64,000 nucleotides of DNA from Flavobacteriales bacterium (lineage in GTDB: Bacteria > Bacteroidota > Bacteroidia > Flavobacteriales_F > PHOS-HE28), in NCBI GenBank assembly GCA_019638085.1, contig JAHBUL010000003.1, forward strand, positions 1-64,000, in the 5' to 3' direction. Every line of letters starts with the position of its first letter. The first letter of the stretch is position 1. This document shows, piece after piece, positions 20,471 through 24,963 of this stretch. The notes below the pieces were generated by a model. It was given only the letters and a program-made list of their open reading frames with translations. It did no database searches and was not told the origin of the DNA. A program made the position numbers and the translations under genes.

Positions 20471-20524
20471 ACGCAACGCACATCCGCGGTTTCAACTACC
20501 TTCGCCGCGCTGATGATCCCCGTC

Positions 20525-20680
20525 TTAACAACCGGGGTTAAAAGGGAACCAGGTGCAATTCCTGGGCTTTTCCTGAAGCTGTAAGCCTGAGTACCGAACC
20601 GGCACAAAGCCACTGTCAACCGCAAGGAAGATGGGAAGGCGTCGGGGAGGGAGGCGAGCCAGAAGACCTGTCACCGGCAT
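20525..20680 (+). promoter_or_regulatory. cobalamin (B12) riboswitch
   Basis: The leader has the conserved cobalamin aptamer blocks in order: AAAGGGAACCAGGTGCAATTCC (20540-20562), GCCACTGTCAA with CCGCAAGGAAG (20609-20630), and the B12 box GAGCCAGAAGACCTG (20656-20670). Closing CCGG sequences sit at both ends. Downstream, CTTCCAGGAA (20693-20702) can pair with TTCCTGGAGG (20751-20760), and GAGGT/ACCTC at 20758-20778 makes a short stem before AAGGA and the ATG at 20793. These are candidates for the switching platform. When B12 is abundant the operon should be off. Confidence 0.93.
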
Positions 20681-20792
20681 AGTGGATGATCGCTTCCAGG
20701 AAAGAAGCGTGCTCCTGTGCCACCGTCCCCTCGGCACAAAAGCACCGGTATTCCTGGAGGTCCTGTAACAAGAAACCTCAACAAGGAATACC

Positions 20793-21908
20793 ATGAAAAC
20801 AACCGGACACCTTTTCGCTCTTCTCGCTATCGCCGTCGGCACCCCGGCACACGCGCAGTTCAACATCTCTGACGTGCAATACTGGATCGGCGCAGGCGCG
20901 GACAGTTCCGTGCTCGTGATCGATTTCCAGGACGGCACCGATGATGCCAGCTACGCCTGGGGCTGGTTGCACAACGGCGGCACCGGCGAGGATATGGTGA
21001 ACGCGATCGCGGCAGCGGACCCGAACCTCAACGTGGAGATCACCAGCGGATTCCTCAACAGCATCACCTACGGTAGCCATGCAGGGATCGGCGGGTCACC
21101 GGATTATTGGTCCACGTGGGATGGCCCGAGCTTGGCTGGATTGGAGACGAGCATGGGCCTCTCAGGAGAGCTCGGCAACGGCGATTGGTTCGGTTGTTCC
21201 TACACCGATTTCAATCCCGCATTGAATCCCACGGAACCCATCGCTGCGTTCGATCCCTTCGGCTTCACTGCTGCGGACGTCACATTCTGGGTGGGCACCG
21301 GAACGGATACCACCGTGCTGGTGGTGGATTTCCAGGACGGCACGGGTGCCTCCTCCTTTGCATGGGGCTACCTGTACTCGGGCGTGGTAACGGCGGAAAC
21401 AATGCTGAACGACATCGCTGCTGCCGATCCGGAATTCGCAGTGGTCACCACGGGCGGCTTCCTCGGTGACGTGACCTATGGCGCACATGCGGGCATCGGC
21501 GGAAGCCCGAACTACTGGTCCACCTGGAGCGGCACGGACCTGAGCAACTGGAGCATGAACCTGGGCATCGGCACCGAGCTGAGCAACGGCCACCTCTTCG
21601 GTTGCTCCTACACCGACTTCAGCCCTGCGCTTCGCCCCGGTACGCCCGTGGCCGCATCCATCACCACCGGCATGCATGAAGCCACTGCTGCGCACGTGCA
21701 GGTATGGCCACAGCCCGCCACGGACGCAGTGAACGTGAGCACCACCGCACCGGGCCAACAGCCAGTGGCGATCCATGACCTCACCGGAGCACGCGTGTAC
21801 CAAGGGCAGACCAGCGGCCTGGTCACCTCCATCGATGTGCGTGGCTTGGCACCGGGCCTTTATGTGTTGCATACCGGCGAGGTGAAGCGCACCATCATAA
21901 TTCAATAA
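20793..21908 (+). CDS. secreted two-repeat T9SS protein in B12 operon
   Basis: This 371-aa protein has a signal peptide ending PAHAQ (residue 22). Two copies of a ~130-residue domain follow, each with a Y/F-W-I/V-G-x-G-x-D start, V-L-V-x-D-F-Q-D-G, S-Y/F-A-W-G, and GIGGSP(D/N)YWSTW. A T9SS type A sorting domain (from about residue 305) ends GLYVLHTGEVKRTIIIQ. It is the first gene after the cobalamin riboswitch and precedes the receptor genes, so it is likely a cell-surface or released protein for corrinoid capture. The domain resembles secreted proteins seen elsewhere in B12 regulons, but binding has not been shown from this sequence. AAGGA lies 5 bases before the ATG. Confidence 0.85.
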   Translation: MKTTGHLFALLAIAVGTPAHAQFNISDVQYWIGAGADSSVLVIDFQDGTDDASYAWGWLHNGGTGEDMVNAIAAADPNLNVEITSGFLNSITYGSHAGIGGSPDYWSTWDGPSLAGLETSMGLSGELGNGDWFGCSYTDFNPALNPTEPIAAFDPFGFTAADVTFWVGTGTDTTVLVVDFQDGTGASSFAWGYLYSGVVTAETMLNDIAAADPEFAVVTTGGFLGDVTYGAHAGIGGSPNYWSTWSGTDLSNWSMNLGIGTELSNGHLFGCSYTDFSPALRPGTPVAASITTGMHEATAAHVQVWPQPATDAVNVSTTAPGQQPVAIHDLTGARVYQGQTSGLVTSIDVRGLAPGLYVLHTGEVKRTIIIQ

Positions 21909-21919
21909 TTGAAAGGGTG

Positions 21920-21945
21920 GGGAGCGCGCGATGCGGCGTGCTCCC
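21920..21945 (+). promoter_or_regulatory. intercistronic hairpin
   Basis: GGGAGCGC pairs with GTGCTCCC across a 10-base loop, 11 bases after the stop of the secreted-protein gene. There is no T-run, so it is more likely a processing or stability element that sets different levels for the abundant secreted protein and the receptor than a full terminator. Confidence 0.5.
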
Positions 21946-21976
21946 AACGCCCAGCTGAATACCTCATCACCCTCCG

Positions 21977-23911
21977 ATGCGTTCCTGCCTACTGTTCCCG
22001 CTGTTCGTCCTGCTTGCCGGGACGCAGGTGCGTGGCCAGCAGACATTGGATACCATCGCGCTACACAATGTGGTGATCGTGGCTCCTCGACTGTCCGACT
22101 TCGCATCCGGCCTCAAGACGCAGGCGATCGATAGCGCCACCATGGCCCGCTACCGCTCGGCGGACCTCGGCAACTTGCTGGAGATGGAAAGCCCGATCTT
22201 CATCAAGTCCTACGGGCTGGGCAGCTTGGCCACCACTTCCTTTCGCGGCGGCAGCGCCAACCACACGGCGGTGCTATGGAACGGCTTCAACATCGGCAGC
22301 CCGATGAACGGGCAGATCGATCTTTCGCTGGTACCCGTGGGCATCGCGGACGAGGTGAGCATCCAATACGGCGGTGCCAGCGCGCTCTGGGGCAGCGGTG
22401 CGGTCGGTGGATCGGTGCTATTGAACAGCACGCCCGTTTTCGACAGCGGCCTCACCGTGGATGCCGGTGCTTCGTTCGGCAGCTTCGGCGACCGGCGGCA
22501 GCACCTTCACTTTGTGCGCAGCACGCCGAAATGGATCTCGTCCATCAGTCTCTTCAACACGGCTGCACGGAATGATTTTCTCTACTCCAACCCGGAGCTG
22601 CTTGGTGCGCCCGAGCAACGGCAGCGCAACGCCGAACTGGCACAATATGGCCTGCTCGCGGAGAACCATTTCCGCATCAACCAATGGCAGCGGTTGAGCC
22701 TGCGCTTCTGGTACCAGAACAGCGATCGCAACATTCCCGCCATGCTGGTGCAGGCCAACAGCAGTGCCAAGCAACTGGACCAGAGCTACCGCGCCACCGC
22801 GGAATGGCAACGGCTCGGCACCAAGGTGAACAGCTACGTGCGCGCCGCTTACTTCGACGAACGGTTGCAGTGGTACGGCACCAGCACGGACAGCGTGGCA
22901 AACAGCCGGTCGCGCACCCTGATCGCCGAAGCGGAAATGCGCATCCGGATCGCCAGCGGGCAACGCATCAACATCGGGCTCAACAACACCTTCGCGGAGG
23001 CGCGCTCCGATGGCTTTCCTGAGCGACAGCAACAGAACCGCACGGCACTCATCGCTTCGTACCGGATCAACACCGCCAACGAGCGCTCCAACACCACGCT
23101 CTCGCTCCGGCAGGAAATGGTGGCGCAGGAACTCGTACCGTTCACATGGTCATTGGGCGGCGAATACGAGCTGCGGAAATGGCTCACCGCGAAAGCGAAC
23201 GTGGCGCGTGTGTATCGCATCCCGACCTTCAACGACCTGTACTGGACGCCCGGCGGAAACCCGGACCTGCTGCCGGAAAGCGGCTACAGCGGCGAGGCAG
23301 GGCTGGTCGCGAAAGGGCAACTGCGGCCGGGCGTAAAGGCCACCGCCGAGGGCACCTTCTTCCAGCGCACCATGGACAACTGGATCATCTGGCTACCTGC
23401 CGGAGCGTACTGGAGTCCGCAGAACATCATGAACGTATGGAGCCGGGGCGTGGAGTTGCGCGGCGAACTGGCATGGCGCATAGGCGGAGCCACCATGAAG
23501 CTGGCCGCCATGACCAACTACGTGGTCTCCACCAACCAAACAGCGAAGACGGTGAACGATGCTTCCGTGGACAAGCAGTTGATCTACGTGCCGATCTACA
23601 GTGGGCACGGCAAGCTCTCGGTGCGCTACAAGGGCCTGCTCGCCACTTCGGGTGTGAACTATACCGGCTATCGGTACACCAGCACGGACAACCGTGAATA
23701 CCTCGATCCCTACGTGCTGGTGAACGCATCCGTCTCGTACCGCATGTCTGCAGGCAAGAAGTACGTCGCCGACCTGATGCTGCAGGGCTTCAACCTCTTC
23801 GATGCGGACTACCAAGTAATGCTGGGCCGGCCCATGCCACTGCGGAATTTCCAGATCGGCCTCAGCGTGCGATTCAACCAAGCCAATTCAACTCCGGAAG
23901 AACAGCCATGA
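21977..23911 (+). CDS. btuB: TonB-dependent receptor, BtuB-like
   Basis: This 644-aa outer-membrane protein has a signal peptide (to about residue 22, VRGQQ), a TonB-box-like LDTIALHNVVIVAPR, a plug domain with GSLATTSFRGG and GAGALWG-type sequence (SALWGSGAVGGSVLLN), and a barrel of about 22 strands. The size and plug match BtuB-type receptors, and the riboswitch upstream supports corrinoids as the ligand. It lies 68 bases after the secreted T9SS protein and overlaps the BtuG-like gene by 4 bases. Assignment to B12 rests on regulation and neighbours more than on receptor sequence. Confidence 0.88.
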   Translation: MRSCLLFPLFVLLAGTQVRGQQTLDTIALHNVVIVAPRLSDFASGLKTQAIDSATMARYRSADLGNLLEMESPIFIKSYGLGSLATTSFRGGSANHTAVLWNGFNIGSPMNGQIDLSLVPVGIADEVSIQYGGASALWGSGAVGGSVLLNSTPVFDSGLTVDAGASFGSFGDRRQHLHFVRSTPKWISSISLFNTAARNDFLYSNPELLGAPEQRQRNAELAQYGLLAENHFRINQWQRLSLRFWYQNSDRNIPAMLVQANSSAKQLDQSYRATAEWQRLGTKVNSYVRAAYFDERLQWYGTSTDSVANSRSRTLIAEAEMRIRIASGQRINIGLNNTFAEARSDGFPERQQQNRTALIASYRINTANERSNTTLSLRQEMVAQELVPFTWSLGGEYELRKWLTAKANVARVYRIPTFNDLYWTPGGNPDLLPESGYSGEAGLVAKGQLRPGVKATAEGTFFQRTMDNWIIWLPAGAYWSPQNIMNVWSRGVELRGELAWRIGGATMKLAAMTNYVVSTNQTAKTVNDASVDKQLIYVPIYSGHGKLSVRYKGLLATSGVNYTGYRYTSTDNREYLDPYVLVNASVSYRMSAGKKYVADLMLQGFNLFDADYQVMLGRPMPLRNFQIGLSVRFNQANSTPEEQP

Positions 23912-24963
23912 TCCGAAACCACTTCCTGGGCAAGGCCTTTCCGCTCGCGCTTTTTCTGTTCGTGCTCGCGACGCTTTCCGCCTGCCGGAAGGACAAGCCG
24001 GAGCAACCGGAGGAAACGCCGATCACCATCGGCAACGATCACGGCGTGTACATCACCAACGAAGGCAACTTCCAGTGGGGCAATGCCAAGGTGAGCTACT
24101 ATGACATCGCCACGGACAACGCGACCGAGGACCTGTACCAGCCCGCCAACGGCGTTGCCCTCGGCGACGTGTGCCAATCGATGGTCCTTTTCAACAACAG
24201 GGGGTACGTGGTGGTGAACAACTCGGGCAAAGTGGTAGTGGTGGATCCGAACACCTTCGTTGCCACGGCCACCATCACCGGCTTTACCTCGCCGCGCTAC
24301 TTCCTGCCGGTGAGCAACGGCAAGGCCTACGCCACCGAGCTGTCCGGTAACGCCGTGCGCGTGGTGGACCTGAACACCCATACCATCACCGGCAGCATCC
24401 CTTGCGCGGGCATGACGCAGGAGCTGGTGTTGGCCTACGGCAAGGCGTTCGTCACCAATGAAAGCAAGGCCTACGTGTATGTGATCGATACCGCCACCGA
24501 TGCGATCACCGACAGTGTGCCGGTGAGCCGAGGCGGAAACTCCATTGTAGAAGATGCCAACGGAAAGCTCTGGGTGGCCTGCACCGGTGGGAGCGGCACG
24601 CCCCCGGCACTCTATCGCATCGATCCACAAACGGCGCAAGTGGAGGCCTCGTTTACTTTCTCCAATTCAGCGACGAACCCGTGGCGCTTGCGGATCAACG
24701 GCAGCAACGACACGCTGTACTTCCTTCGAGGTGGTGTGTACCGCATGGCCATCACCGATGCTGCGGCGCCCGTGTCGGCGTTCATCCCCACCGACGGCCG
24801 CAACCTCTACGGCTTGGGCATCGATCCGAACACCGGCACCCTCTACCTCGCCGATGCCGTGGACTACGTGCAGCGCGGCGTGATCTACCGCTACCGGCCC
24901 GATGGCACGTTGCTGGGCACCTTCCACGCGGGCATCATTCCGGGGAGCTTTTGCTTTCGGTGA
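23908..24963 (+). CDS. BtuG-like surface beta-propeller lipoprotein
   Basis: This 351-aa lipoprotein (ATLSAC, Cys26) is followed by a YVTN/DUF5074-type seven-bladed propeller with repeats such as GKVVVVDPNTFVATATI and GNAVRVVDLNTHTITGSI. In Bacteroides, BtuG lipoproteins of this fold sit on BtuB and bind B12 very tightly. Here the gene overlaps the receptor stop (ATGA) and is under the same cobalamin riboswitch. A role as surface lid and B12-capturing partner of the receptor follows from that knowledge. The binding residues cannot be checked by eye. Confidence 0.85.
   Translation: MIRNHFLGKAFPLALFLFVLATLSACRKDKPEQPEETPITIGNDHGVYITNEGNFQWGNAKVSYYDIATDNATEDLYQPANGVALGDVCQSMVLFNNRGYVVVNNSGKVVVVDPNTFVATATITGFTSPRYFLPVSNGKAYATELSGNAVRVVDLNTHTITGSIPCAGMTQELVLAYGKAFVTNESKAYVYVIDTATDAITDSVPVSRGGNSIVEDANGKLWVACTGGSGTPPALYRIDPQTAQVEASFTFSNSATNPWRLRINGSNDTLYFLRGGVYRMAITDAAAPVSAFIPTDGRNLYGLGIDPNTGTLYLADAVDYVQRGVIYRYRPDGTLLGTFHAGIIPGSFCFR

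Follow-up and report, generated by a model that had tools for sequence, protein, structure and literature searches.

A protein with a type IX secretion tail and predicted transcobalamin-like domains, encoded in a riboswitch-controlled vitamin B12 operon and related to riboswitch-linked proteins across the Bacteroidota

The first 64,000 nucleotides of contig JAHBUL010000003.1 (assembly GCA_019638085.1, forward strand) from a Flavobacteriales bacterium, referred to here as the window, carry a vitamin B12 operon in which a cobalamin riboswitch is followed by the gene for a 371-amino-acid (aa) protein with the C-terminal tail of type IX secretion system (T9SS) cargo, and then by btuB and btuG. We consider it probable, at roughly 0.8, that this protein captures corrinoids at the cell surface or after secretion, by means of a divergent domain that is predicted to have the transcobalamin-like beta-grasp fold, and that it hands B12 to BtuG and BtuB. 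The riboswitch, the gene order, the identities of BtuB and BtuG, the T9SS signals, the linkage to riboswitches, the fusion to BtuG and the similarities of fold and profile were all established computationally. Judged by sequence, the domain appears to be an unnamed one that is tied to B12 riboswitches, is spread phylum-wide through Bacteroidota genomes of both the Flavobacteriia and the Bacteroidales type, and is often exported by the T9SS. In the mechanism that we propose, scarcity of corrinoids would lead the riboswitch to permit expression of the operon, and the T9SS would export the 371-aa protein, to be displayed on the cell surface or shed from it. Each of its two beta-grasp domains would then capture a corrinoid and pass it to the BtuG lid and the BtuB receptor encoded on the same mRNA, and TonB-driven import through BtuB would follow.

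The aptamer, which the first-pass annotation had called a canonical cobalamin aptamer, is indeed one: it aligns over the full RF00174 covariance model (positions 1-189) with a score of 105.6 bits, the gathering threshold being 31.5 bits, and begins 28 bases 5' of position 20525, where it was first placed. It is the sole cobalamin riboswitch of the host genome (3.99 Mb, 99% complete). RNA folding predicts a leader hairpin that abuts the ATG of the 371-aa gene and may be the expression platform; such an arrangement would suit control of translation initiation. The receptor and the BtuG-like lipoprotein described earlier also hold good, as the best PDB match of the former is the BtuB chain 8bmx_C (E-value 7.5e-62) and the latter matches 8bmx_D (E 1.4e-75) and DUF5074 (E 1.6e-33) and has the lipobox LSAC. 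The ATGA coupling that was noted at the same time applies to btuB and btuG, whose stop and start codons overlap at 23908-23911, but not to the 371-aa gene, which ends 68 base pairs (bp) ahead of the start of btuB.

The host bacterium appears to be vitamin-B12-dependent. Its genome encodes three proteins with a B12-binding domain, and CbiC, one single marker of corrin synthesis, was not found in it. One of the three is encoded within the window, some 11 kb 3' of the operon, and is an IcmF-like protein of 1169 aa that joins its B12-binding domain to a MeaB GTPase and a methylmalonyl-CoA mutase domain; it is probably an adenosylcobalamin-dependent mutase. Elsewhere in the window, a 1203-aa protein combines ABC-2 membrane domains with an M1 peptidase domain.

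The 371-aa protein itself had been described as T9SS-exported, with two copies of an unnamed domain of ~130 aa, and both parts of this description are confirmed. The repeats, each of ~135 aa, are identical at 75 of 136 positions (alignment score 405, shuffled maximum 30) and match no family in Pfam or NCBIfam. PDB sequence searches with the single protein and with domain profiles gave no real match for the repeat, and viral contigs gave none for the domain. Two known identities were considered and rejected, namely that of BtuJ (DUF4465), whose family PF14717 is unmatched both in the 371-aa protein and across the host genome, and that of BtuH, as the domain profiles match neither 7biz nor the H-domain of 8blw in the PDB sequence search. 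At the C-terminus, the Por_Secre_tail domain PF18962 scores 30.6 bits (cut-off 27; E 4.1e-07), TIGR04183 is matched as well, and the T9SS translocon SprA is encoded in the host genome (2550 bits), so that the signal peptide, the tail and the secretion system by which T9SS type A cargo is recognized are all found together. The gene is under purifying selection, with ratios of nonsynonymous to synonymous substitution rates (dN/dS) of 0.17-0.33 in four congeneric comparisons.

The first-pass annotation had proposed a check on whether the domain co-occurs with B12 riboswitches in other genomes, and this check was positive. Within the genus, genomes of ~3.7 Mb hold one, rarely two or three, cobalamin riboswitches, and the domain is present in 17 of 45 genomes; in the first scan a riboswitch lay immediately upstream at 15 of the 18 loci of relatives. 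Among the three exceptions, L016 is a divergent copy with neither riboswitch nor btuB beside the domain gene, L018 is cut at a contig edge, and L019 is a stretch too short to reach the riboswitch of its operon, which is visible in the wider stretch L032. Outside the genus, seven genomes from three further families have the domain in a phylum sample of 393, and seven of the eight loci concerned are riboswitch-led, the eighth (L037) ending at the end of its contig. Locus L033 provides an independent case, a tandem T9SS protein encoded by a monocistronic, riboswitch-led unit, of the same architecture as that in the window and with no adjoining receptor gene. Named species of Flavobacterium, Chryseobacterium, Epilithonimonas and Soonwooa contributed 80 loci, and a riboswitch is present in 77 of them (called by a profile trained on Rfam-verified copies, which made no matches in a reversed-sequence control); two of the three loci without one are cut by contig ends. 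The loci of the Flavobacterium/Chryseobacterium group have a constant order of riboswitch, btuB, btuG, btuH (assigned by a match to 7biz, E 3e-43) and a gene for a protein of ~755 aa. In another order, that of genome G075, the domain occurs in 40 of 393 genomes, and 30 of the 32 regions read have a riboswitch (by Rfam, and for L234 by the trained profile). The domain gene is the first past the riboswitch in 25 of these regions, at 53-249 bp downstream, and the usual order, close to that of the window, is riboswitch, domain protein, a T9SS protein of ~327 aa, btuB and btuG. These 32 regions cover about 20 family labels and therefore do not represent one inherited locus. Loci counted in one genus are not independent of one another, and the weight of the linkage lies in the number of families and architectures. 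It could be supposed that the 371-aa protein is just another T9SS surface adhesin, or a repeat protein with a structural role, placed in the operon by chance, as might suit a repeat with no named Pfam or NCBIfam domain, but linkage over about 20 families and in several architectures makes this already disfavoured explanation scarcely credible.

Several side observations concern these loci. The recurrent ~327-aa T9SS protein, which has the tail as its only Pfam domain and in many loci of the Bacteroidales order is encoded after the transcobalamin-like gene and ahead of btuB, is possibly another B12-capture protein and perhaps a remote relative of BtuH. Genome G032 has a second riboswitch-led copy in which the domain stops after ~97 residues and is followed by unrelated sequence, the result of either recombination or an assembly chimera. 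A fluoride riboswitch lies near the homologous locus of genome G041.

The architectures in which the domain occurs range from single copies (about 240 aa, T9SS-tailed) through tandem forms to three copies (L231), and it is placed beside the genes of BtuB, BtuG and BtuH in relatives' loci. Fusions to a BtuG propeller occur in several lineages: at L034 the domain is joined to a DUF5074/BtuG propeller (E 1.6e-120) with a T9SS tail, and at L212 to a DUF5074 propeller (E 8.3e-18) within a protein of 1315 aa; the relative at L032 is a lipoprotein. As to where the protein acts, a type A tail fits anchoring and release alike. A true cobalophore would be released, bind a corrinoid away from the cell and return to BtuG and BtuB in the manner of a siderophore or of transcobalamin, a variant of the corrinoid-capture reading that we regard as rather unlikely. 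It would accord with a protein that has a T9SS tail and no lipobox, and with the stand-alone, riboswitch-controlled gene at L033, away from any adjoining receptor gene. It would accord also with a pattern seen in congeneric genomes that lack the tandem domain, in which the gene under the one cobalamin riboswitch of the genome encodes a BtuG-like protein of ~425 aa with a T9SS tail; btuB was undetected beside these genes, several of the loci being short. It seems that the genus has two alternatives for an exported protein under riboswitch control, and genome G022 has both. Against the cobalophore stands the frequent anchoring of type A T9SS cargo to surface lipopolysaccharide, as does the relative at L032, whose lipoprotein form speaks for tethering in one lineage at least. 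We infer that the 371-aa protein is displayed at the surface rather than released; it may act as a released, diffusible carrier, but this is not favoured over tethering.

The predicted fold brings the domain close to the B12 carriers of animals. AlphaFold models of the tandem protein and of a longer fused form have predicted local distance difference test (pLDDT) values of 90.3 and 91.6 and predicted template modelling (pTM) scores of 0.82 and 0.89, respectively. When the long form is compared with the PDB by Foldseek, all matches with a probability above 0.5 are to transcobalamin or intrinsic factor; the tandem matches transcobalamin, intrinsic factor and haptocorrin at probabilities of 0.87-1.00, and the Ruminococcus gnavus protein 3u7z at 0.87. 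Against 5np4, a structure of the human transcobalamin beta-domain by itself with cyanocobalamin, the tandem has a TM-score of 0.64 by target length. Other beta-grasp proteins match the models at lower probability, as expected for a beta-grasp fold. Each copy is modelled with the element order b-b-H-b-b-b-b-b, which agrees with the mark of the transcobalamin-like clade of the soluble-ligand-binding beta-grasp (SLBB) superfamily, a beta-hairpin inserted behind the helix of a beta-grasp core. Profile comparison points the same way. With hhalign, a profile of 70 domain sequences scored 24.4 (E 0.0014) against a profile composed of transcobalamin, intrinsic factor, haptocorrin and one bacterial DUF4430 sequence, a score reached by none of 150 column shuffles (maximum 17.0), and the HMMER score of the enlarged profile to bacterial DUF4430 was reached by one of 2000 shuffles. 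The human transcobalamin and intrinsic-factor beta-domain queries were checked against PDB entries 5no0 and 3kq4. The alignment with the transcobalamin/intrinsic-factor family is colinear and takes in a YW strand that is conserved and a G-x-x-x-x-L-x-N/D-G connector. Two glycines of the domain, G35 and G64, are invariant or nearly so, and are candidate counterparts of the two glycines conserved across the superfamily.

A number of results weigh against this interpretation. Three of five tandem models came out at low confidence (60-63), and the Foldseek E-values are modest, at about 0.01 to 0.9. With HMMER, transcobalamin, intrinsic factor and haptocorrin sequences of human, rat or bovine origin, taken one at a time, did not rise above shuffles; hhalign of the domain profile against the single human transcobalamin sequence was not significant, nor was that of a smaller domain profile against the transcobalamin family (E 0.07, with the register colinear), so that only the enlarged 70-sequence profile stood apart from shuffles. 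The domain is also missing from 28 of the 45 congeneric genomes. Furthermore, BtuL of Bacteroides thetaiotaomicron is a lipoprotein of a B12 operon that does not bind B12 (PMC12751083), and membership of such an operon is therefore no proof of B12 binding in itself. That precedent lends some colour to the idea that the 371-aa protein is an accessory subunit with no B12 binding of its own, which would stabilize the BtuB-BtuG lid or help it open, or else play a part in vesicle release as BtuL does. We think this improbable, since fold and profile match a domain with a known cobalamin-binding function and L033 provides a riboswitch-controlled copy away from btuB. The ligand might instead be an incomplete corrinoid such as cobinamide, a free lower-ligand base, or the B12-carrying protein of another organism, given the variety of ligands bound across the beta-grasp SLBB superfamily (PMC1796856) and the binding of cobinamide, too, by the transcobalamin beta-domain in crystals (PMC5599065); the cobalamin riboswitch that controls the gene, and the pairing of its product with BtuG, nevertheless favour complete corrinoids, and we hold a different ligand to be unlikely. 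The first-pass annotation had seen in the 371-aa protein a corrinoid-binding protein, either released or tethered, and its binding of corrinoids is now supported strongly, if indirectly, by the riboswitch linkage, the BtuG fusions, the fold and the profile.

Table 1. Positions of the features discussed; coordinates refer to the window unless a locus (L) is named
Feature	Position	Strand	Basis or remarks
Cobalamin riboswitch aptamer	20497..20689	+	RF00174, 105.6 bits, E 2.1e-25
Leader hairpin ggtattcct...aggaatacc (predicted)	20747..20792	+	Minimum-free-energy and centroid structures agree
371-aa secreted protein	20793..21908	+	Signal peptide, two transcobalamin-like beta-grasp domains (predicted), T9SS type A tail
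Signal peptide, residues 1-22	20793..20858	+	No lipobox; sequence MKTTGHLFALLAIAVGTPAHAQ
Domain copy 1, residues 23-157	20859..21263	+	
Domain copy 2, residues 158-292	21264..21668	+	
T9SS type A C-terminal sorting domain, residues 304-371	21702..21905	+	PF18962, TIGR04183
BtuB-type TonB-dependent corrinoid receptor, 644 aa	21977..23911	+	Plug and barrel; 8bmx_C
BtuG surface lipoprotein, 351 aa	23908..24963	+	8bmx_D, DUF5074, LSAC lipobox
IcmF-like protein, 1169 aa	36143..39652	+	
ABC-2/M1 peptidase protein, 1203 aa	16555..20166	+	
~425-aa BtuG-like proteins	L157:727-2013, L160:735-2000, L164:671-1957, L171:691-1971; also L161, L162, L166, L168-L170, L172		
~327-aa T9SS protein	L204-L235, e.g. 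L208 8185-9180, L210 3811-4812	Reverse complement (both examples)	
Interrupted second copy of the domain	L152:1-7001 (G032:C233)		
Fluoride riboswitch, genome G041	L011:3444-3509	+	

A bolder reading, which we put forward tentatively and think doubtful at present, is that Bacteroidota make counterparts of animal intrinsic factor, in which T9SS-exported multi-copy or BtuG-fused transcobalamin-like domains would grip B12 in a clamp made of two domains, either a pair of copies or a single copy and the BtuG propeller, and serve as a diffusible or surface carrier. If true, this would amount to a major, previously unnamed family of B12-capture proteins across the phylum. The capture proteins known from Bacteroidota, namely BtuG, BtuH, BtuJ and BtuK, come mostly from work on gut Bacteroides, and the present domain adds to them. 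Resembling the human B12 carriers, it makes bacterial secretion of a protein B12 carrier a testable question and bears on the origin of the beta-domain of animal intrinsic factor.

The likeness of the 371-aa protein to the beta-domain of transcobalamin, intrinsic factor and haptocorrin lies in the predicted beta-grasp, in which strand 2 is followed by a helix and the helix directly by extra strands; like carriers of that type it would be extracellular, here in a host lacking the corrin-synthesis marker CbiC. The alpha/alpha-toroid that partners the domain in transcobalamin and intrinsic factor is missing, and in its place are tandem or triple copies, a T9SS tail or a BtuG propeller. In published work the transcobalamin-like clade is recorded from low-GC Gram-positives, planctomycetes and some euryarchaea, with Bacteroidota not named (PMC1796856). 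DUF4430 (PF14478) is transcobalamin-like in bacteria, but the present domain is too divergent to match it: no match above gathering was obtained in any of 15 domain members. DUF4430 itself was found in one of 248 Bacteroidota genomes, and no relatives of it were found in plasmids.

Among the B12-capture proteins of the Bacteroidota, BtuJ (DUF4465, IPR027828) is similarly extracellular and encoded in B12 operons, and 229 of 824 DUF4465 members have a T9SS tail (PMC12751083). It differs from the 371-aa protein, which lacks PF14717, in its beta-jelly-roll fold and MNTPSY-type motif. T9SS-tailed extracellular B12 binders have already been proposed for DUF4465/BtuJ (PMC12751083), and the idea of such a binder is thus not new in itself; what is new, relative to a literature covered incompletely, is the domain, the fold predicted for it and the link to B12 control that it shows across the phylum. 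BtuK (BT_1486/BT_1487), compared here by description, comprises B12-operon lipoproteins likewise lacking an assigned family, of which BtuK1 binds B12 (PMC12751083); the domain profile matched no PDB chain. The BtuB and BtuG of the window are close homologues of those in the BtuB2-BtuG2 complex solved from Bacteroides (8bmx), from which the operon differs by the extra T9SS protein gene ahead of them. In BtuGH (BtuG1) of Bacteroides thetaiotaomicron a second B12 domain is fused to the BtuG propeller (PMC10404256), and a comparable fusion of the present domain to BtuG occurs in Flavobacterium/Chryseobacterium; the second domain of BtuGH, however, is BtuH and C-terminal, whereas the domain fused here is transcobalamin-like and N-terminal, and BtuH is encoded by a separate gene.

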